A stretch of DNA of 64,000 bases from Mycteria americana (taxonomy: Eukaryota > Chordata > Aves > Ciconiiformes > Ciconiidae): positions 16,142,001 to 16,206,000 of the forward strand of contig NC_134373.1 in NCBI RefSeq assembly GCF_035582795.1, given 5' to 3'. Every line of letters begins with the position of its first letter. The stretch's first letter is position 1. Positions 1,768-64,000 of the stretch are shown here, one piece after another. The notes below the pieces were generated by a model. That model had not been told where the DNA came from and did not search any database. It worked only from the letters and a program-made list of their open reading frames with translations. The translations under genes were made by a program, and so were the position numbers.

Positions 1768-26788
<25,021 letters not shown>

Positions 26789-27745
26789 TCCTTCCCCTCC
26801 TCTTTTCGTCAATACCAGCTACTTTCGTTCAAGATCCTACCATGCTCGGTTCCCAGGTGCTCTTTCCGCAGTTTTTGCTTTATTATTACAGTTATATCAT
26901 AACCCGAGAAGAAGTCAAGGATGAAAATAACAGGGTCTCAGCCTCTCCTTTTCGGGTAAACAACGTAGCACAACACAAGCAACTGCAGACAAGTGTCAAG
27001 CATGTCCGTTCTTCGCCAGCGCTGCTTCGGTTTTAATCTCTGAAAGTGAAAACATACCCTTCAGGCCTTTGGTGGAGGAAGGAAAAAACAAATCCGTACT
27101 TAAAGCCCACAGACGACCTCGGGAATTGCGCGGCGGCAGGTCGCATTGCTTTCGTCTCTGACATTATCACCCCTAAGACGGAGAAGTCTGATTTCTAATT
27201 TTCGTGGAGCTTTCTCTTTTTTGCAGGGAGTCTGCGGGGGGGAAGCACAGGGCTGCTGAGAGGTGACGCCGGAGCCCTGAGGGCGCGGGGAGAGGCGGCG
27301 GTGGTAACGCGGCTTATCCTCCCGCCGGGGGGGGACGGCCGCCCCCCGCACGCCGGGGCCCCGGCCCGGCAGTGACAGCCGCCGCCCTGCTCCCCCCACC
27401 CCCAGGCTCCACAGCCAGCCCCAGAGCCCGGCGGGCCCAGGCAGCGGCGTCTCCCGCAGATCAGCGGCTGCCCAGGCAGAGGCGCCGGCCGCGGCCTTCC
27501 CCGTCCCCCGCGGGAGAAGCGCTGCGCTGCCCCGCGCCGCCAGCTACCGCACCCTCGGCCTCCCTCAGCTCCCCCCGCGCCACCGCGGCCTCTCCTCACA
27601 GCCTACCCGGGCCACGGCGTATGGCGGCCGGGCAACGCCGCGCGGCAGCCGGGCAGCGGAGGGGGCTGGGCCTCGCCACATCGCCCGCCCCGCCCGCATT
27701 CCGGCACACGCCCCGGGCCGCCGCCGAGGGGCGGAGAGGCCGCGG

Positions 27746-27757
27746 GCGCCATCTTGG
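27746..27757 (-). promoter_or_regulatory. YY1-type motif in NBEAL1 promoter
   Basis: The minus strand reads CCAAGATGGCGC, which contains the AAGATGGCG core bound by YY1. In CpG-island promoters this motif commonly lies in sense orientation just downstream of the transcription start, so it supports a minus-strand promoter here. Confidence 0.55.
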
Positions 27758-27897
27758 CTGCGGGCAGGCGGAGGGGAGCAGCTACCCGCAGGAGGAGCGC
27801 CCGGGGCTGCGCTGCACCGCCCGCCCGGCGGCCGTGGCGTAGCGCCCCGCAGAGCAGCGCGGGGCCGCTGGTGGGGCCGGAGGGAGCCGCGCGGGGC

Positions 27898-27920
27898 GGG
27901 CCGGGGCCGGGGCCGGGGCC
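27898..27920. repeat. Short GGGGCC hexanucleotide array
   Basis: Three full GGGGCC units preceded by a partial GGGCC, inside the NBEAL1 CpG island. Such arrays can form G-quadruplexes. The copy number is low. Confidence 0.85.
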
Positions 27921-27965
27921 GCGGCGGGCAGCCCCGGCGGCAGAGCCATGCCGCAGCCCACGGCG

Positions 27966-27972
27966 CCTCACC
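27966..27972 (-). promoter_or_regulatory. Strong splice donor, probable NBEAL1 non-coding exon end
   Basis: On the minus strand CTCCTCAG is followed by GTGAGGC, a near-consensus donor. It would end a short 5' UTR exon lying at about 27972-28050. The partner acceptor upstream of the ATG exon is not identified, so this is a candidate only. Confidence 0.45.
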
Positions 27973-28060
27973 TGAGGAGCAGCCGGTCCCTGTCACGCAC
28001 CGCGCCCGTCTGCCGCGCGAGGAGTCTGCCTGTAAAAGGATCGGCATTCCCGATCCTTGT

Positions 28061-33899: not shown

Positions 33900-34175
33900 T
33901 TAGGAAATATGCACTCTTGGTTGGAAGGATCCAACTTTGGCAGTCATGGCACCCCAGTTGGTCAATTGCCTGTACTCACCAGGCCTCAGGAGGTACTGCT
34001 GTCCTCGGAAGTGTGGCTGTTCATAGAAAACCCAGCTTCCTTCAAGTATGTTACAAAACTGGATGTCCCTGTAGTGAAAGTCATCCTGGAGAGCGGGGCA
34101 GTTATCTATGAAATCCAACATCCTGCCTCCAAAGTCATTCCACACATAGATCTGTAGCCGGCTGTGCTCTTGGGG
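33900..34175 (-). pseudogene. CRYG copy 1, exon 3 (Greek keys 3 and 4)
   Basis: This 276-bp exon is open from a TTCACAG acceptor to TAA, giving 91 residues. It starts PQEHSRLQIYVWNDFGG and ends WGAMTAKVGSFQPRVHIS. Both keys keep the Y/F-x4-F-x-G pattern (YVWNDFGG, FYEQPHFRG). Length and stop position match mammalian CRYG exon 3. There is no lesion in this exon. Confidence 0.93.
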
Positions 34176-36033
34176 CTGTGAAGGCAGATCCAGACATGGA
34201 TGCGCAGGATGTCAAGTGGCAGTTCTAGGTGACTATGGCTTGCTAGGTGCAATACTGATGCTAGCAACGCAACAGTGAATAGCCTCTAATATGTGCAGAA
34301 AAGTCAGTCTAACAGGAATAAATTTGACTGGGTCCTAATTTAAAGCAGCAGTGCTGTGAGTCCTTTCTGCTCCGGTGAGACTAGAACTGCAGTTGCTTTG
34401 AAGGAGTTGCAGTAGGGCAGGAAGCAGAAGGGGGGTCCAGCCAAGATCACCACACTTCAACTATACATGCAGATAAGAAATAAGCTCAGTGATATACCTG
34501 GATTGCCACAGCAGTCACATGCCCTCAGTGTTCTTAGATGTTGATGTAGTAACTGGATAAGGCTCTGGGACAGAGGGGAGCTTTTTCTGACCCTGTTTTT
34601 GTTGCACAGCCTTGGGTGGGCAGGCTTTTTTGCTTTTCATCTACTAAGATGTTAAACTGTTTCAAGACTGTCTCTGACTCTTGTATCTATCTAGCACAGC
34701 AAAGATTTGATATAGAAAAATACTTTCTGCTCTTGCATCAGTACTCAATACAGTTTTTGCAGGTGCTCAAGTGCAGTTGTATAGACACAAGAGTACTGCT
34801 GCTGTGCAAAGACCAACACCTTAGTTAAAAAAAAAAAAACACAACCAAAACCAACAACACTTTAGTAACTATGTTTGTGGAATCAAACTTTCTGGATGCT
34901 CTTGAATCTGGAAAGCATGCAGAAATGTGTCCTAATTTTAGTTTGTTTTTTTTTTTCTACCCCCATACTAATTCTCTGTTTCTCTGCTTCTCAGGTACTT
35001 CCGATCAGTCTCCCAAGTCAACTTCCCTTCAGACCATCTTGTTCCCACCCTCCTCATCTGTGACTTTTCCCTCTACAGCTTGAAAGGACACAAGAGTGTC
35101 TGCACTAGCTTTCAGCATTTGGACCCAGAACTTGGCTTAGCTAAGTGAAGCCCAGAACTGCATGTCAGTAAAAAAAAAAATAGCAGCATTATCCTGTGCA
35201 GATAGAATGTATCTGGAAACTTGCTGTGATGGTCTATGAAGCTTCTGCTGGACAGGCAAACTGTGAATTGTACATAAAGCGTACAATATGGATGAACTTA
35301 ACTTTTCATGAACATTGGAGGGACACATTTCAGCATCAAGGCCATTCCTGGGCCAAATCTGAAATCCTTAGCCTGATGTCTGAGTATTGAAATCTTTAAC
35401 ATCTTGGCAACCTCTCCCCTTTTAGTAAAACTCTTCCAGGGAATGAGTCTAGGAGATAAAAACACAGATCTATTCTGGGCTGAAGTATTCAGAAAAAAAA
35501 CCTATCATGAGGCAAATAGGCCTTCATTTGCAGCTCAAGTACATGGTGGTTTCTTCACAATGGGATGTGTCAGGTTGCCTCTGTAGTAGTGTAGTCACCA
35601 ACTTTGCCTACCTTGAAAGAAGAGCATTGACTGCAGCATGGGAGATGTGGGTTAGTTCTCAGATTTGTACTGACCTTTCTTGTGTAGATCATGTATAGCC
35701 AGAATGTTTTTAGAAGATTGGTGTTTTTATATATATAAAAGAATAGATAAATGTATTATTAAAATAAAAATTAATATAATAAACTCCCCCTCCCCCCCCA
35801 CCCCCAAGCACTATCCAGCCATTCATTTGGCTGAGAATTCCAACTGACTTATCTACCTCTTTGAGAGTCTAAACCCCATTAGGTGAACTTGGTAAGTGTC
35901 CTTTCTACTACCCTCCTTCTACATAGACGTCTCTGGGGAAGTTGTTACTTGTGTCAGAACTGTCAAAATGGGGTGTAGTGCTCTGATTCTAATATAGGCA
36001 GTAACATACATAGACACAATATGGAAAACTTAC
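34176..36033 (-). other. CRYG copy 1 intron 2
   Basis: A 1.86-kb intron with a GTAAGT donor and CAG acceptor. It includes an A-rich tract at 34828-34856 and a C-rich tract at 35786-35806. No gene is seen in it. Confidence 0.75.
35786..35806. repeat. C-rich simple tract
   Basis: A run of CCCCC, CTCCCC and CACCCCC-type sequence in CRYG copy 1 intron 2. Confidence 0.7.
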
Positions 36034-36272
36034 TGCTGTGATGATACAAGACCTAATGGAGTCATTGAAGCACATCCAGTGCTGGTAGTCAGGATATTCT
36101 CCCTTCCTCAGGAAGTACTGATGGCCTGTGTAGTTGGGACATTCATAGATCATCCAGCAGCCACTTTCCACCTCAAAAGAGCTGCAGCAGTTCAAGTGGT
36201 CATGCAGTCTGGCTGGTCTGTGGTGGCTTCACAGGAGCAGTCCTCAAAGTCTCTGTTCTCAAAGAAAGTGAT
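36034..36272 (-). pseudogene. CRYG copy 1, exon 2 (Greek keys 1 and 2), frameshifted
   Basis: The exon is 239 bp where 240 would keep frame. Acceptor (TTATTGCAG) and donor (GTAAGT) are intact. Key 1 reads FFENRDFED, with Asp at the conserved Gly. The frame then breaks at CCAGACTGCATG near 36207, where one base is missing compared with copy 2 (GACCTGCAG). The second frame runs cleanly through [19 protein letters not shown] and [11 protein letters not shown] to the donor. Confidence 0.9.
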
Positions 36273-37290
36273 CTGCAATAAAACAAAAGTAAGGTGGTTA
36301 CACTGGAAAGTGTTTGAAAGCTGGCTTTGTTTTGCCTAGATTGTACAAAACAATCCAAAGACTGCAAGGGTCCATAGGGATGCTTCTACCAGGCCCAAAG
36401 ACTAGCAAAGCCCTTATGTCCATTTTCTATAAGATGCACAGACAGTTACTGGTATCTTCATTTCTCTCGTACTACAAATGACAGGTGGATGTCCCTTTGG
36501 GACGCTGGGAAGTGGGGGGCAACTTTCATCATAATTTCGTGCTGGAAATAGCCTGTCAGCAGCTCCATGACAAGCTTTTGGGAGCATTTGGAGAAAGTGA
36601 AACCCAAATTGCTCTTTGACTAAAAGCTCCATGGACGACTTCTGTGTATCACACAATCATTCAACTTTGTGCCCATCTCCTGCACCCAGTCCTGGGTCCT
36701 AGAAATCTTCTGTGATGTAGAATACAGATGAAGGAAGGAATAATTCTCCTACATCTGAATTGTGCTGAAGCTTTCACCTCTTTTAATGATACAGGAACAA
36801 AACAAGACTGTTGTGTCTAACCTGAGTTAACCATTGAGCGCTCTAGGTCCTGTTGGGCAGCTATATCTTAGCAGCAGTGAAATCAATTTAGAGATACTTA
36901 AATTCAGTGGCATTGTTTGGCGGTATTTATTACATTTGTTTGGAATAGAGTACTTCAACCTTATTTTCCTTTCATCTTAGAAGTCTAAGAATATATAAAC
37001 TTTAGGTCTCTTTCAGCAGCTGACAAACTCAAAGGGAAACTAGCCAGACAGAAAAATAAAAACAAAAGATTTTTATGTGTAAATGTTTTAGCATTTGAAA
37101 GCTTCCAAGTACACTATAGGCTTTCTTTAGGAAACTTACCAAAGAGCTAGATAATAAAACAACCACTTGAGGTTTCCCCTCTGCTAATTTGTTGGTAGAC
37201 CAACAAACTATATTTGCAAACATACTTGTCTACAAGGAGCTATGCATGTGCTAGGTTGTTTCAGTGCTCCATTCACTCAGCTGTTCTCAC
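36273..37290 (-). other. CRYG copy 1 intron 1, unusually long
   Basis: A 1,018-bp intron, compared with 86 bp in copy 2 and roughly 100 bp usual for CRYG genes. It may hold an old insertion, or exon 1 may derive from a neighbouring lost copy. I recognise no repeat family in it. Confidence 0.65.
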
Positions 37291-37299
37291 CTTTGCCAT
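37291..37299 (-). pseudogene. CRYG copy 1, exon 1 (three codons)
   Basis: The minus strand reads ATGGCAAAG followed by GTGAGAAC. This is the family's diagnostic three-codon first exon (MAK here, MGK usually) with a good donor. The downstream TATA spacing supports it as the true start. Confidence 0.8.
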
Positions 37300-37352
37300 T
37301 TTTGCCAGGGTTTAGCTGTGAGACCTCAGCATGCAGCAGGAGTCAGCAGTCC

Positions 37353-37360
37353 TTTATATA
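37353..37360 (-). promoter_or_regulatory. TATA box of CRYG copy 1
   Basis: TATATAAA on the minus strand, 54 bp upstream of the ATG, which fits the short leader of gamma-crystallin genes. Copy 2 has the same octamer at nearly the same distance. Confidence 0.8.
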
Positions 37361-37368
37361 GAATGCAC

Positions 37369-37379
37369 AGTGCTGCATC
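37369..37379 (-). promoter_or_regulatory. Shared proximal element of CRYG copy 1
   Basis: GATGCAGCACT lies 8 bp upstream of the TATA box. Copy 2 has GATGCAGCATT in the same place. Its GCAGCA core faintly resembles a Maf half-site, but the binding factor is inferred, not shown. Confidence 0.5.
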
Positions 37380-40300
37380 CACAGGAATAGGATAAAAGAG
37401 AATTTTTTTGCTCAGTAAAGAGAATGAATGTTTTTCCTCCTCCCTCTCTCCATTGTCATTCTCTAAAGAAAAGGCAATGGCAGTAGTTTGCAGGGTACAA
37501 CTTTATTGTTACTGTCAGTAGGCAGAGGATCAGAGTAAGGGGTAGGTGAAGCAATATTTCTGTTACTTTACTGATGAAACATGTGCAAGTGAAGTGCTGG
37601 AAATGCTGCACTAGAATTGTTTCATGGCACTTTATTTTTAGTCTCTCTCTGTTCCCTGATTATATGAGACAAAGGTATTTTAATGCATATGGATTCCCAG
37701 TCATGATACTGTAAAACAGTTTTCACAGTATGCTGATAAAAACTGTCCTGACTTTCAAGACCCTTCAGACCAGGTATTGCTGCCTGTTTCCTTTAGCAGT
37801 AAGAGTATGCGTATGAGAGAGAAAATGAGGTAATAAAAAATGTGTGGTAATGGATGTTTATATCCATCCAGGCTTCACTGCTGAAATTCTATATTAATGT
37901 AATTCAGAGCTCTTAGATAAAGCAACTAGAAGTTGAAGGATGGATACCACTTGTTTAAGGCAGAGAACAGCCTTTTTAAATCTGCACAGAGAAATGTTTC
38001 CCTTGAGGGATGCACAGATTTTTGGAACTCAGGTATGAGTCCTTGAGGCAAAATGCAACAGCTTAGTAATTTCTTCAGCCGAAGAAACTTTAATTGCAGT
38101 TGAACTTAAAAAAATGTTATTTAGGAAGAACATTGTGGTAAGTTTTCAGTCTGATTAATCTCAAAGATGCTCATGACTGTGTTCATTCAGGCCCTTGTTT
38201 GTTATGGTGTAGTGCAATTCTCAGTCAATCGATACATTGCAGTGGTCTTCAGAAGTCTGGGCAATAGGCAGCCTCAAAGTCAGAGCTGTTTTGAATTTAT
38301 TGGAAGGGCAGGCTGAAGCTGATGTACTCTGGGGCTATTTAGGTAAAGTTATTCTGCTGCTGATCATCTCTGGGCTCTAGCAGAAACTCTTTTTCTCCGT
38401 TTCTCTCATTTGAGTAATGGGAGGTAACCTGAGTAAAAGTTTTGTGCTACCAGTGCTAGATCAGGCTTTTTAAGTATTTTCCATTCAGTCTAGTAATTAC
38501 AAGGCCTAAGTACAAACCAATGTTAAAATATCAAGGAAATGTTATCTATTTGAAATTGAGAAAAAAAAATCCAAGACTGGTTTTCAAAGGAAAAAGATGA
38601 TTCTTCTGGAGTTTTAAATATTTCTCTAACTTGTTTTTGTTTTGTTTTTTTTTTTTTCCCAGGGACCGTTCCTTTCTCTCCTGCTTGCCTTCCTTTCCTC
38701 TCCTTCCACACCCACCTTTGAACTAACCTTCACAAAATCCTGTCATGTGCAGTGCCACATTTTCATATTTCCTGCTCATACTGCATGGAGCAATAGTGGA
38801 TCTTTTTGTCTCACTGGCTTCTTGTTCAACCAAAACGCTACATGTTTGTGCTTTCTTGCATGTGTCTTTCACTGAGTCTTGTATGGTGATTTCATGAAGC
38901 TACAAAACTTCAGGGGCAAATCTTTAGCTGGCCTGTTTTTACACAGCTCTAGTTGTGCTTCTAATGGGTGTTGTAAATGGTATCACTCCTGTCAGCCTCT
39001 CTTGTGCAGGTGCTTCCTCAGCCATGAAATTGTAGCCTTTAACACTGAAAGCAGACTGAGGGAAGAGTGTGAATTTAAGTCTAGCAGTTGCTTCTGAATA
39101 CCTCCATGCTTTTTTTGGATCAAAAGTAACTGCTTCCTGATGGTTAATGCTAAGCAAATTGAATTCACTTACAGGAACAACTTCTATGTGTAGGCCTGTG
39201 CTTGCATTTCTCAAAGATCTTTGACAGGCTCTGAAGTGTTACACTTTTTTTTTTTTAATTTATTCTTTCTGTGATCATGCTTGCTTTGTGAAGCTGGCTT
39301 GTCATTGGGTCCCATATGGTCCTTCATAGTTTAATACAGGGGGCACTGGGCTTGGTGATGAAGTTTGGAACTTGAGAGACCAGAGTAGGGGCAGTGATAT
39401 GTGAATTCTTTGTTGTAGCTACAATGTAGAGCAGCCATCATGGGTCAGACTGGCAGTCCAGCTAGTCAAGTAACTTGGCAGCAACCACGACCATGAGTAG
39501 GCACCGAGGGAAGGGTAGATATGAAGCAAATACATATGATACTTCATTCAAACTTCAAGACCTCAAGTAATTTTTAGCTCAAGAGGTTTCCTGAGCAGGA
39601 GGTTACTTCTCTCTGGTTAATAACCCTCAGTGGATTTGTCTTCCAAGTACTCATCCAGCTTCTCCTTGAATCCTGTAGACTTTACCCTCGCAGGACCCTA
39701 TGCCACAGATGGGCTGTGCACTGCAGGAAGGGCTGTGGGTTGATCTTAAAATCTGGAGCCAAAATATCTCGTTAGCCAAATGGTATCCATGATCTGAGGA
39801 GTCTGGTTACTTACATCTGTTCCAACTGCCCTCAACTAGTATGCTGTTATGACAGCTGCTTTTGCGGGGGGATTGACTGCTTTTGCACCCCAGAAAAACT
39901 CAAGTGTAGGGGTAATCTGAAAATAGTAGAGTGTTTGTGTAGAGAAACACCCTGCATGCCAGCAACTGTAGTGCCGGCTACCAACCATAAAACAAACTAC
40001 AGGAACCTAGAAGACTTGCTAGTGAAAACTTGGGTGCTCTCTGTGAATTCCCAGTGCTCTGCTCCTCTCCTTTAGCACCCTTGTTCATAATGTCTGGTTG
40101 AGATTCTCTGAGCATTTGCAAAGAAAAGCAAGTAAATTCTCCCAGTGCTCCTTGAAAACTAGGAATTGCCACCATTCTTGTCTCAGGTGGAGAAATTTGG
40201 AAAGGTTTAGCCACCCCGAAACTCTAGGATGCAGCAGAGTCAAGAATCCAGGCATCCTAACTATTGCTCTGATCACTGAATAGTACATTTCTGTTCATTC

Positions 40301-42271: not shown

Positions 42272-42539
42272 TCAGTGCAAGTCAGCCAGCCTCTGCAAAA
42301 AGACAATTTTGGCATTTACTGTACCCCAGTCAGGGGATCTTCTGTATTCCCCAGGTTTCAGTAAATATTGTCGGCCCCTGAAGTTGGGCATTTCATACAA
42401 GATCCAAGAGCCACCTAAAACATTGAGGGAGCAGATCTCAGATGTAGCCTGGGACTGATGGGCAATCATCAGTGAGCTCCAACATTTGGCCTTGGAGCTC
42501 CTTTTTTTCATAGAGCTGAATCTTGTGGGAAACAGAATT
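42272..42539 (-). pseudogene. CRYG copy 2, exon 3, 8-base deletion
   Basis: The exon is 268 bp against 276 in copy 1. After an intact CACTGCAG acceptor it reads [20 protein letters not shown] and then [13 protein letters not shown] before a stop. In another frame it resumes [20 protein letters not shown] and ends [23 protein letters not shown]. Comparison with copy 1 places the missing 8 bases between these two segments. Confidence 0.92.
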
Positions 42540-43554
42540 CTGCAGTGGCAAACACAGCATAAGTGTAAGAAAGACAGAAATTTAACTGATTCTGACATTA
42601 CTGAACAAGACAGACATCCAGAAAAAGGCAACTTTCCCAGCTACTATGTGCATTTCTGAGAAATTGTGTTCTATTCTGGAGATGGGATTGCGAAGAGATT
42701 CACTTTTTGAAGCTAACAGAGGTTTAAGTCTTACCCACATGGAGGAGCTCAGGAGTGCCAGCACATGGGTATGATCACATGTGTGGTAGGAAGTAAATGG
42801 AGGATGCTTTATTATTTGAAGAAATGTGATTTATAAGGACTCTATATTGTGACAATAGGAGAAAACATATTCATGTGACTTTGAGATGATCTGTGTCGCT
42901 TACTTGTGACCAGGCATGAATAATATGGCTTTTTCAGAATTATGCTACTAATAACACATTTCCTGTGTTACTCCATATGCTCCCATTATACACTGGTGCA
43001 CAGGCAATTGCCATGTGGCAAACTGCTGAGCTATGTGAAGCACAGGCATGCGGAGTGTTCCTAATGCTATGGCTTCTGCTCGATAGCATATCTTACTAAC
43101 CAGAGAAGTACTTTAGCAAGTATTAGTTCTTTGCCTGATTTTAACCAACATAGCGTTTATGGTAGGAAAGCTGTACCCATTGCAAATCTGATTTAACATG
43201 TTCTTGTGTCATTGAATCATAGCATAGTATGGTCACGAGCAAGTTGCATACATCAGCCTACAGCAGAACTTTCTATCAGCTGGCCCTGCTAGCCCTTCCC
43301 TGAGCAATGTAAAAACATTCTCTACCTAGAAACAGTCACTCAGCTTTCTTTTAGCATCTCCAAATTATGAACAGGCCCTGGAAATAGCACTGATATTAAA
43401 CAGATTAGTTCCTTCATCTCCAGTGAAACTTTGCATTGCCTTACTGAACTTTGCCTGTCTCTTGAGTTACTTGAAGAGACTGTATAATTATATTATTAAA
43501 GGATAAACCACACCCAATTGCTTAAACTGTGATATGCTTCCAAGCAGAACTCAC
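42540..43554 (-). other. CRYG copy 2 intron 2
   Basis: A 1.0-kb intron with a GTGAGT donor and CAG acceptor. No recognisable element is present. A GAATCATAGCATAG string near 43215 looks faintly like a CR1 end but does not extend. Confidence 0.7.
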
Positions 43555-43793
43555 TTGTAGGACTGCATGACAAGACCTGATGGAGTCACAGAGACTGAAC
43601 CACTTCTGGAAGTCAGGATAGTCTCCCCTTTTTAAAAATTACTGGTTTCCCGAGTAATTGGGGTTCTCATCATCCCGCTACCTTTTTCCACCTGGATGGA
43701 ACTGCATTGTTTCCCATAGGACTGCAGGTCAAGGTGGTCACTGCTACATTCATAGCAGTGGCCCCGGAAGCTCTTGTCTTCATAAAAAATGAT
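43555..43793 (-). pseudogene. CRYG copy 2, exon 2, frameshift and stop
   Basis: The exon is 239 bp where 243 is usual. It begins IIFYEDKSFRGHCYECSSDH and keeps the Gly of key 1. TGC-TGG (Cys-Trp) is AGC-GGG (Ser-Gly). A 4-base deletion follows ATGATG. The remaining frame ENPNYSGNQ is followed directly by TAA, then [20 protein letters not shown] and a GTGAGT donor. Confidence 0.92.
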
Positions 43794-43879
43794 TGGCAAT
43801 ATAAACATTTGCAAAGACTCATAGTCCATCGCAGTGTCTGTGTCAGAGCAGAGTACGGCATACTGGGGCTTCCACTTAC

Positions 43880-43888
43880 CTTTCCCAT
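43880..43888 (-). pseudogene. CRYG copy 2, exon 1 (three codons)
   Basis: The minus strand reads ATGGGAAAG followed by GTAAGTGG, the standard MGK exon of gamma-crystallin genes with a strong donor. Confidence 0.88.
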
Positions 43889-59477: not shown

Positions 59478-62400
59478 ACTCTAGCTGTCACTGTAACATA
59501 AGCTCAATGGGATCTAGGAGAGAGAAAAGTGCATCCTATCAAGTATGTCTATCAGTGAGCAAATCTGAAACACAGATAAAGAGTACGGGACTCTTGGAGA
59601 CCCCCTACAAAAATCTGGCCAAAACCATTTCCCAGGTAGCATTGCAATTGAAGCTGAGAAAACACTAGTCAAGAAAGAGAAGACAGCACGCACACTACTG
59701 AAAGTGAGGGTAAGGAGTTTGGTAATGGGAAATGGGCAGAATGAGCCCATTTAAGATGAACATCAGTCTTGAGTGTCAGCTTGCAGGTTGCTTGCATCCC
59801 CATCACAGTGATGTATATCCTCTCATATAATGCAATCTATTGACCTGCTGCCACTTCTGAGTTTGTAGCAGGTGGCCTGCTCTCCCCACTGTGTGTGTTT
59901 TAATTGGATTTATGTGGTACAAAGAGGGGACAGACTGGGAAGAGGACAGGCTGGAAGAGATGAGGTAACAGCTGGCCTGACAGGACACAGCAAAGAGAGC
60001 AGCCAACACCTGGCCCAATCTGTTGTAAAATCAAAGCGCATGCTTCACTCCTCTGCTCCATAATACACAAAGCAATGACATACCTAGTAAGCTCTCTGTG
60101 TTACTGGATATTGTCCCCCTATTCTCTCTCATACATGTACACAAGAAATCACGGACTACCTGTGTCAGCTCTTGGAATAGGCCTCAGGATCTGGGTTTGG
60201 AGCCTCTCTGACTTCAGGTATCTATGAAGAGGAATTCCCTCTTGATGTTGCTGTTCCTTTCTTGCCTCTGCCACTCAGTTTGTGTGACAGGGAAATTAGG
60301 CTATGGCTTCACGCAGGTCTGCAGCTTTCTCCTGTTGCTTAGAAACAATGCTGCTGAGCTGAGAGAAATTAAAAGAAAAAAAAACAAAACAACACAGAGA
60401 AGAGGTTAAACCTGCACCTTCAGGTTGGGTTATCAGTTTCAAGCTAAATGATCCTTTTACACTTCTAGGCATTGAGTTTCACTGCTGAGTGGCTGGTTGG
60501 AAACATGGAAGACTTGCTAACAAGGGAGGCAGAGACTATTCACTGGGTTTTCTGATGGATCTAACTGCTTGTAAAAGAAGCTATCAGCTTCCACTGTTCC
60601 AGCATTCCACCATATGGAACAGTGAAAAACTAGACCTGATACCTCCCAAGAGCCCATCTAGGGTTCCATTTGCAGTATTTATGCATATAGCAAGGATCTT
60701 GCTACTTGTTCTTTCATCAATGTTATGGTTTTGCTTACAGTATTAGGAAAAATTCTAACAGCCAAGAAATCCCAACACAACTTACTAAATCCTGCTGTTT
60801 TCCTTCCAGTGGATGCAGGGCACATCTTGCGCAGGATTGCTGATGGTAACCAATGCATCATGATGACTAACAAGTCAGTGAGAGGCTATTGGATTTTGTA
60901 GATTAGGAAGGTTTGCAGGCTGTAGTTCTGAATGGAATGAGCCATCCCCCTTGTTGTGAATGTACTTCTCATGTTATTAACTTATTACCTAGTAAACAAT
61001 AGGAATGGTTTGAGACATGATCATAATATTGCCTCTCTTTGTGATGGCCTAAAAAAACATAAAAGCAAATGTATTATAATGAGAAGTACATGTTTTCCAG
61101 GAAAAAGCCTACTTGGTATTTACAGAATTTGTGCTGTGCTTTCTCTTCCTTATTTCATTTCACTGCTCTCTTTCCAAAGCCCAAGCTTTAGGCATGTGCC
61201 CAGGCAGGTGCAAGAGGTAAAGGTGGTGGATATGGTTCTGCCACCTACTGTGTCTATGCCATAGCAGTGCAAAGCCAGGTGGGCAGCCACTGAGGGAGGG
61301 CTGGAGTTTGGGAATGGCCCCTTGTAGCAGCGTTAGATACTTATGGCCATTCTCATTCTATGGCAAAAGGAACACCAAGCTTAGCACTCTCGCACCTTTC
61401 ATTCCAGCTGCGGGGCTTTTAATCAAGTTGGATTTGATTTCTGAGGGCATCCGCCTGGCAGGCATCATGGCAACTCCATGTCTTCAGTAGAGCTGCTGCT
61501 TGTTTGCTCTGCTTTGAGAAATGGAGATCTGCCGCCTGCCTTTCCTCCAGTTACACCTACCCAGGGCTCATCTGCTGGTATGGCCAGGTGAGTGTGAAAA
61601 GTGGCCTTCACAAAGTGAACATAGCTATGCCAAGACTAACCCAAAGTCCTGCTAACCCAACTCCTCTTCTATTATGTGGCAAGGGTGATACCCTGATGAA
61701 GAAAGTGACTTTCCTGAAATGAGGCTGGTCCCTAGCCCTGAGGTGAACTGACCCCTGCTGTTTCCCCAAAAGCAAGAAATGCCTCTTTCATTGCAGGGCA
61801 GGGAGGGGGGGTGGCACTGTGTTTGTGCTCTTCCTGAAGAAAAAAAATAGCAGCCACAAGGGAGGGGATGCTAGGGGAAGAGATGGAAGAGCTGCACCAG
61901 TAGGCATCAAACTTTCTCAGTGTATTTCCCCATTCTCCGCTGATTTGCAGCTCAGGACCTTCTTGAGCAAAAAGTGTTGTCTGGTCAGTTAATAGCCCTT
62001 GCTTGTTTTTTACTTGATAAACTTGTCCAATCACTTTTTGAAACCTGAGTAATAGACATCTGCAATATCACCTGGCAAAGATTTCCACTGTTTAAATAGG
62101 GCTGCGTGGGAAAGGGTCTCTGGTTTTAAGCTGTCCACTGTTAATTTAATTTGCTGGCCAGTGTACTTAATACCCTTAGTAAAGTAACTTAGTAAACTTA
62201 GTAGGAGCAAGTTTAGGCCCCTCAATCTGTTGAATTTGTTGTGCACGGAGCACAGAATACATATTAGTGAAGGACACTTAAGTCTTTTCCCCACACCATA
62301 GCACATTTAATGCCAGTCACAGGTTCCCCAAAGCAAGAAGTAAAGCAACAGGCAAGTCTGCGTGTCTGCAGAATTGTTATTCACTGCAGGTCTGATTTTC

Positions 62401-62990
62401 AGGCTGGTACGGAGGCTGTTTTGTCAATCTGCTATTTAATTAAGTTGGAAGGAATAAATTTTTTTAATAATTTGCACGATTTAATGGTCATCAGCTAATG
62501 TACTAACAAGTACCACATAAAATAGTAATAGGAGTAGGACTTGGGACTCTTGGAAAGGGCTACCATTCACATGCCTGTGGCAGCAGGTAGAAGCGTTTTT
62601 GCCAGCCTTGTTTGTATTGCACATTCCCTCTGCACCTCCACTGTAAATTGCTGTTCTGCAAACTGGCTGCTTTTTCCTTACAGGCCATTTCCTTAAAATA
62701 TTTAACATCGTCACATCTGCACATGCAACATCAACTTCTTGAGGACAAATTCAAAGGTGTCTGGAAAGCAATGCGTTAACTTGGATTGAAATATAAATTA
62801 CTTAAGAAGAAAATTTTCCTTTTAATAGACCGTAAAATGTCACCTTTTCGCAGGTGAAAGCTGCAAGCCAGGTGCTGAATTCTGCGGACAAACAAACCCT
62901 AACTCTTGGGCAAGATCTGTCCTTCAGAACAACCCGCGGGCTTTTCCGAGCCGTTTCAGGAGCGTTTTAGCTCTGCGTGCCCAGGGCGAG
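59478..62990. other. Intergenic region between C2orf80 and the shugoshin gene
   Basis: The two genes are divergently arranged. No further gene, RNA gene or clear mobile element is recognised. IDH1, the mammalian neighbour of C2orf80, is not present in this interval. Confidence 0.65.
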
Positions 62991-63180
62991 CTGCCGGCAG
63001 CAGCGCCGAGGGCCCGCGCTGGCGCCTCACAAGCACGGCCTCAAAGTTATGCGCTTCCAGTCAGAAGGGCGGCGGGACCGCGGCGGCTGAGAAGGCGGCA
63101 TTTCGGGGTCCCCTTTCCCCGTGAGGGCGGAGAGCTCCCCCTCAGCAGCGGCTGCCTGGCCCACCTCGACATGGCAGCAC

Positions 63181-63191
63181 AAAATGGCGGC
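63181..63191 (+). promoter_or_regulatory. YY1-type motif in shugoshin gene promoter
   Basis: AAAATGGCGGC on the plus strand matches the YY1 core in the sense orientation, suggesting that transcription starts just upstream. Confidence 0.5.
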
Positions 63192-63570
63192 GCGGCCTGA
63201 CACGAGAGCGCGGGTGCCGCGGGCTCCCCGCACACGGAGGTCCGCCCGCGCCCTGAGGGACGGGGGAAGTAACGTCCCCACTCCAGCGCAACCGGCAGCA
63301 GGGATGGAAAGTTTGTGCGCCCCTGGTCTCGTCCCAGCTTTCCCCGGCGGAGCAGCGGGCGAAAGGAAACCGCCACTCCCCCCCGCCACCATCCCGCGGG
63401 GCGGGGCGAAGGGCGGGCTTCCCGCCGTCCCGGTTGCATTTCAAAAGTCTCCCGGCGGGCAGGGCTTCCTCTCCTCCCTTCCCTCCTTCTTCGGCCGCGG
63501 CGAGGGGCAGCCGCCCACCGTCCCGCAGGGCTCTCCGCGCCGGTGGGTGCCGAGGCCGCCGCACCGCACG

Positions 63571-63579
63571 CAGGTGAGG
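63571..63579 (+). promoter_or_regulatory. Splice donor ending probable non-coding exon 1
   Basis: GCACGCAG|GTGAGGC is a near-consensus donor 320 bp before the coding-exon acceptor. A weaker alternative, GGCCG|GTAAGC, lies at about 63831. Confidence 0.55.
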
Positions 63580-63893
63580 CGGGGTGTCCGCCCGCCCGCT
63601 CTGCTCCCCGCGACCGCTGAGGGGCCGCTGGCGCAAGGGAGGCGGTGGAGGGGCTGTAACGGCCCATGGGGGCCGTCGTGCCTGGGAGCGGCTCGGGGCG
63701 AGGTGCGGCGCGGTGTGGTGTGTCTGCGGCCGGCCCTGCGGCCTCGTTCCTTCCTGCGGGGGTCGGCGCAGCAGCGGGGCGGGGGGGTGAGGCCGCACGT
63801 ACGCTTCTCGGGGGGAATGTAGGACCTGGCCGGTAAGCACTTGCTGAAGGGAAGACGACGGGTGCTAACCCTGCTCGGTGTCACTCTCTCCAG

Positions 63894-64000
63894 CTATGGC
63901 ATCTTGGGAGGCTTCCAAAACATCCTTCTTCAGCCTGAGTGGCGTAAGAGAGCGGATGCGGGAGAAGAAAAACGGTGCCTTGAGGACTGCGAAGTTGAAT
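63894..64000 (+). CDS. SGO2: Shugoshin-like gene, first coding exon, cut by window edge (probably SGO2)
   Basis: The exon begins after a strong CACTCTCTCCAG acceptor with ATG two bases in (63896). The 35 codons visible read [20 protein letters not shown] and [15 protein letters not shown], running off the edge in frame. Shugoshins protect centromeric cohesin in mitosis and meiosis by recruiting PP2A through an N-terminal coiled coil. The pattern of an SG-x-R-x-x-K stretch followed by a TAKLN/TTKLN motif resembles recalled human SGO2 just ahead of its coiled coil. The RERMREKKN stretch also resembles SGO1. A chromosome-2q33-type neighbourhood favours SGO2, since human SGO2 maps to 2q33 and SGO1 to 3p24. 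The identity rests on only 35 residues. Confidence 0.55.

Follow-up and report, generated by a model that had tools for sequence, protein, structure and literature searches.

Layout of the locus

The window analysed here is the whole stretch of 64,000 nucleotides of Mycteria americana DNA. On its minus strand, at 37299..33900, is an unprocessed gamma-crystallin gene with three exons (copy A), and 5 kb upstream of it a second one (copy B; 43888..42272, minus strand) with at least four lesions. The features of the two copies are the following:

37300..37440, minus strand: copy A, putative promoter and leader, with TATATAAA and GATGCAGCA
37291..37299, minus strand: copy A exon 1, 9 bp, ATGGCAAAG, encoding MAK; donor GTGAGA
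36034..36272, minus strand: copy A exon 2 (239 bp), encoding the N-terminal domain and carrying a one-base frame lesion; acceptor TTTTATTGCAG, donor GTAAGT
36192..36194, minus strand: copy A TGA that ends the frame early, 158 nt 5' of the junction between exons 2 and 3
33900..34175, minus strand: copy A exon 3 (276 bp), encoding the C-terminal domain; open, with 91 codons plus TAA stop; acceptor CTTCACAG
43880..43888, minus strand: copy B exon 1, MGK; donor GTAAGT
43555..43793, minus strand: copy B, remains of exon 2, in which the acceptor AG is missing, a net 4 nt are deleted and a TAA occurs; donor GTGAGT (ends set by eye from the copy A alignment and the GTGAGT donor)
42272..42539, minus strand: copy B, remains of exon 3, with a net loss of 8 nt; an AATAAA lies 19 nt past the stop

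The TATA box TATATAAAG is found 5' of copy A exon 1, and an alignment of the two copies places the two upstream elements listed for copy A upstream of copy B as well. All four splice dinucleotides of copy A are kept, and neither its promoter box nor its start or splice sites show visible damage. After the 9-bp exon 1 there is one two-motif domain per exon, which is the layout of the gammaA-F genes. A canonical AATAAA was absent from the 673 nt 3' of the copy A stop, where an ATTAAA occurs at 303 nt; either another defect or a differing 3' end could account for this.

Intron 1 measures 1018 bp in copy A (36273-37290) and 86 bp in copy B. A DNA search of the whole assembly, in which very common words were skipped, gave no other genomic copy of the copy A intron.

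The sequence-only reading had described three exons with their splice sites, a TATA box, an open 276-bp exon 3 and a single missing base in exon 2 leading to TGA after about 29 residues. Every one of these elements was found; copy B was absent from that reading.

The frame lesion of copy A

Copy A is open from the ATG for 3+26=29 codons, followed by TGA at 36194-36192. Past the lesion the crystallin sequence resumes in a second frame, which runs through the remainder of exon 2 and joins exon 3 in phase. The lesion aligns with a tyrosine common to all six reference gammaB/D/S proteins. On both sides of it, none of the 172 codons is a stop, the count covering 516 coding bases and leaving out five bases at the lesion. 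With its early TGA, copy A lacks the open reading frame of a gammaA-F member, and combines kept introns with a coding lesion in the manner of an unprocessed pseudogene.

With promoter box, start and splice sites seemingly undamaged, just one coding lesion speaks for the death of copy A, which counts against the pseudogene reading, and a single lesion may stem from faulty assembly. A base missing in the assembly only, with copy A intact and perhaps working, would agree with the lack of any other stop and with the preserved splice dinucleotides. Around the lesion (36180-36215), however, no homopolymer exceeds two bases, the contigs are long and the window holds no N. Furthermore, gammaA-F are described as silent in bird lenses (PMC2358921, as excerpted). 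We consider such an error quite unlikely.

The lesion might also be a null allele segregating in the species, with an open gene in other individuals, and the presence of one lesion only speaks for this. On the other hand, one lesion is equally compatible with millions of years, and the assembly shows a single haplotype: a whole-assembly DNA search with copy A returned nothing beyond the query locus and a gammaS stretch at 71%. A null allele of this kind is thus, in our judgement, unlikely.

A programmed -1 frameshift was ruled out because the stop is not preceded by any slippery heptamer in frame. The TGA lies 158 nt 5' of the last junction, and the spliced message is therefore prone to nonsense-mediated decay by the usual rule. 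Copy A is taken as dead because of this TGA, because no slippery heptamer is present and because the first in-frame ATG 3' of the lesion is within motif 2.

Family assignment

Exon 3 of copy A alone matched the Pfam Crystall profile at 1.5e-26 (positions 2-81 of 82). The protein joined from the three exons, with the lesion written as X, was used in a phmmer search and had its best match to the chain 4w9a, which we take to be bovine gammaB, at 1.9e-64. What had been proposed from the letters, a bird gamma-crystallin gene carrying a single frame lesion, is right. For each of gammaB, D, C, E and F, the top chain outscores every listed gammaS, gammaM7 and beta chain; six further gammaD chains score slightly under the gammaS chain 5vh1. 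By this order and by the tree below, copy A is closer to gammaA-F than to gammaS, gammaN or beta. Its protein identity is 55-56% to bovine gammaB/D and human gammaB and 43% to the bird's own gammaS. Four tryptophans, the motif of the gamma fold, are found in the copy A alignment. Judged from its sequence, the crystallin identity of copy A is not a matter of chance.

In the tree, copies A and B together with three mammalian gammaB/D rows are split from gammaS and gammaN (support 86/97, not starred). The placing of A, B and the mammals among themselves varies: FastTree groups B with the mammals, whereas the careful tree joins A and B at 32/12, with p-AU of 0.34 and 0.28 for the alternatives. The comparison of exon 3b of copy B with gammaS was left out, being misaligned.

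As a separate candidate, the identity of copy A as gammaS was ruled out by the order of the matches; the bird's own gammaS is found on contig C7.

In mammalian CRYGA-F genes a first exon of 9 bp is followed by two exons that each encode one two-motif domain, exon 2 being 243 bp long. Copy A resembles them in exon layout, in identity and in its IDH1 neighbourhood, and differs in its broken frame. Apart from the lesion, its exon 2 is one codon shorter than theirs.

Copy B and other matches in the window

The window contains five of the assembly's 55 Crystall matches, two from copy A and three from copy B. A stop lies inside six of the 55, one of them in copy B; like the possible assembly error, this counts against the pseudogene reading of copy A. 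Copy B is decayed much further than copy A. When the window and four 10-kb loci flanking it (L027-L030) were searched with blastn and tblastn for further copies, all matches other than A and B were weak, with E of 0.02 or worse. No Rfam match reached the gathering score in the window, and ten of its 35 open frames gave no Pfam family (0/10).

Genomic neighbourhood

IDH matches were found at C9:16219300-16226189, approximately 13 kb past the end of the window and on the minus strand, which is that of the crystallin copies. One IDH exon matches cytoplasmic IDH chains at 1.8e-59 and mitochondrial chains at best at 7.9e-49. Since it matches the cytoplasmic chains better, we identify the neighbour as IDH1. 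The mammalian CRYGA-F cluster sits near IDH1, and copy A has the same linkage.

PLEKHM3 is a neighbour of the mammalian gamma cluster. Exons with Rubicon homology (L012, L013 and L016; contig C9, 14.19-14.23 Mb) lie some 2 Mb away on the plus strand. Should these be PLEKHM3, there may be an inversion between them and the crystallin cluster.

The bird's own gammaS and gammaN have open main exons and share the superfamily with copy A, but they lie on other contigs. The own gammaS matches 5vh1, presumably chicken gammaS, at 1.1e-110; its small first exon was not found with a simple pattern. Additionally, a tandem ASL pair is present on contig C15, with the members approximately 14 kb apart and three exon matches each. 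All of these matches fall under the whole-protein cut-off, as expected when searching exon by exon. The tandem ASL pair is the delta-crystallin arrangement. The assembly also gave ten globin matches; two were compared with the PDB, and their best single-chain hits are 1hbr haemoglobin D and 3wr1 alpha-A, both bird proteins. These globins, the own gammaS and the ASL pair all indicate a bird, while a lysozyme search yielded a single weak match.

Age of the loss and divergence

A lesion clock was applied to copy A with assumed inputs, i.e. an avian substitution rate of 1.5-3.3e-9 per site and year, with an indel/substitution ratio of 0.05-0.10. The resulting rate is 0.083-0.248 lesions per Myr. 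For a single lesion the best-fitting age is 4-12 Myr, the 5% upper bound is 19-57 Myr, and at 80 Myr the probability of at most one lesion is 0.01 or less. The count argues against a loss that predates the radiation of modern birds. Given the age of modern birds, the frame was probably still open after they arose, and the loss of copy A is possibly fairly late. That a gammaA-F-type gene was selected well past the rise of modern birds and lost only in the lineage of this bird is conceivable, and we lean somewhat against it. If it were true, intact copies would be expected in some living birds, even though no gammaA-F is said to be used in the avian lens.

Motif 1 of copy A is more divergent than the remainder. 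It shares 10/30 residues with bovine gammaB, compared with 81/134 for the rest (p=0.008); the same comparison gives p=0.014 with bovine gammaD and p=0.16 with human gammaB. Between copies A and B, second codon positions differ in 15/25 codons of motif 1 and 20/89 elsewhere (p=0.001). The motif 1 region was picked after the data had been seen, and one of the three mammalian comparisons is non-significant.

The earlier reading had suggested that the locus 'died very recently'. A very recent death is one of the ages allowed, but a loss up to 19-57 Myr ago fits at the 5% level, and motif 1 had already diverged.

The same divergence would agree with a shortened product, made from a downstream start or by internal splicing, in which motifs 2-4 are selected and motif 1 is free to change. 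Both the mammalian comparison and the A/B differences in this post hoc region point that way. However, a start at the first ATG in motif 2 would remove half of the N-terminal domain, and we know of no crystallin lacking it. We regard a shortened product as highly improbable.

We also counted departures from invariant columns. Across the columns that do not vary among four functional sequences, three gammaB/D and one gammaS, these are 23/77 for copy A, 16/74 for copy B, 7/78 for the own gammaS and 31/74 for the own gammaN. For the columns invariant in the three gammaB/D sequences only, they are 42/122 (A), 33/116 (B), 47/122 (own gammaS) and 44/122 (2m3t gammaS). The 23/77 of copy A against 7/78 in the own gammaS speaks against a fully functional gene having died abruptly, a point offset by gammaN and by the gammaB/D columns. 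Divergence alone is no proof of death.

Relaxed constraint in the invariant columns was accordingly rejected as a sign of death: gammaN stands at 31/74, and the own gammaS exceeds copy A on the gammaB/D columns.

Interpretation and published work

Copy A is very probably an unprocessed gammaA-F-type lens crystallin pseudogene in a bird, beside an older pseudogene, copy B. Transcripts of copy A, if any, would be spliced normally, halt after 29 codons and undergo nonsense-mediated decay, and no gamma protein would be made from it. The lens would instead be served by gammaS, gammaN and the delta-crystallin pair. Copy B would have lost function first, with the frame of copy A open for longer.

The avian absence of gammaA-F is already in print, and this locus is a further example, expected from it. 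In the excerpts used here, none of gammaA-F is expressed in the avian lens, with Van Rens 1991 given as the source (PMC2358921), and the loss of gammas in birds is mentioned in a 2012 review (PMC3554465). Chicken gammaS and gammaN mRNAs were detected, at low abundance according to the discussion, whereas the abstract of the same paper places CRYGN among the highly expressed crystallin genes (PMC9012887, excerpts). A dead copy A is consistent with these three sources, none of which, as excerpted, treats the locus of this species. A literature search of titles and abstract openings, with subscription journals little covered, gave no published description of this avian locus among the matches listed.

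The excerpted review also states that gammaA-F have no orthologs in non-mammalian vertebrates (PMC3554465); despite this, a gammaA-F-type pair is found near IDH1 in a bird. Human CRYGEP and CRYGFP, described there as largely intact, unexpressed gamma pseudogenes (PMC3554465, excerpt), are of the same cluster type as copy A, in another lineage and presumably by independent loss. Among archosaurs, the alligator gammaD-like crystallin A0A151N9E2_ALLMI clusters with mammalian gammaD and is listed as a protein (PMC11118217, excerpt); we liken it to copy A from that description.

The main interest of the locus is that two copies are seen at two stages of decay. Compared with their orthologs, copies A and B could date the order and time of avian gamma-crystallin loss.

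Two further observations were made. Three equal-scoring open frames of 288 amino acids (L006, L007 and L008; contig C1, 86.98-87.00 Mb) lie within 19 kb. Each of them carries two Crystall matches in a single frame, and they possibly belong to an epidermal differentiation-specific protein-like family. In the window, the crystallin copies are flanked by GC peaks of 0.554 (26001-28000) and 0.560 (62001-64000), which resemble CpG-island promoters.
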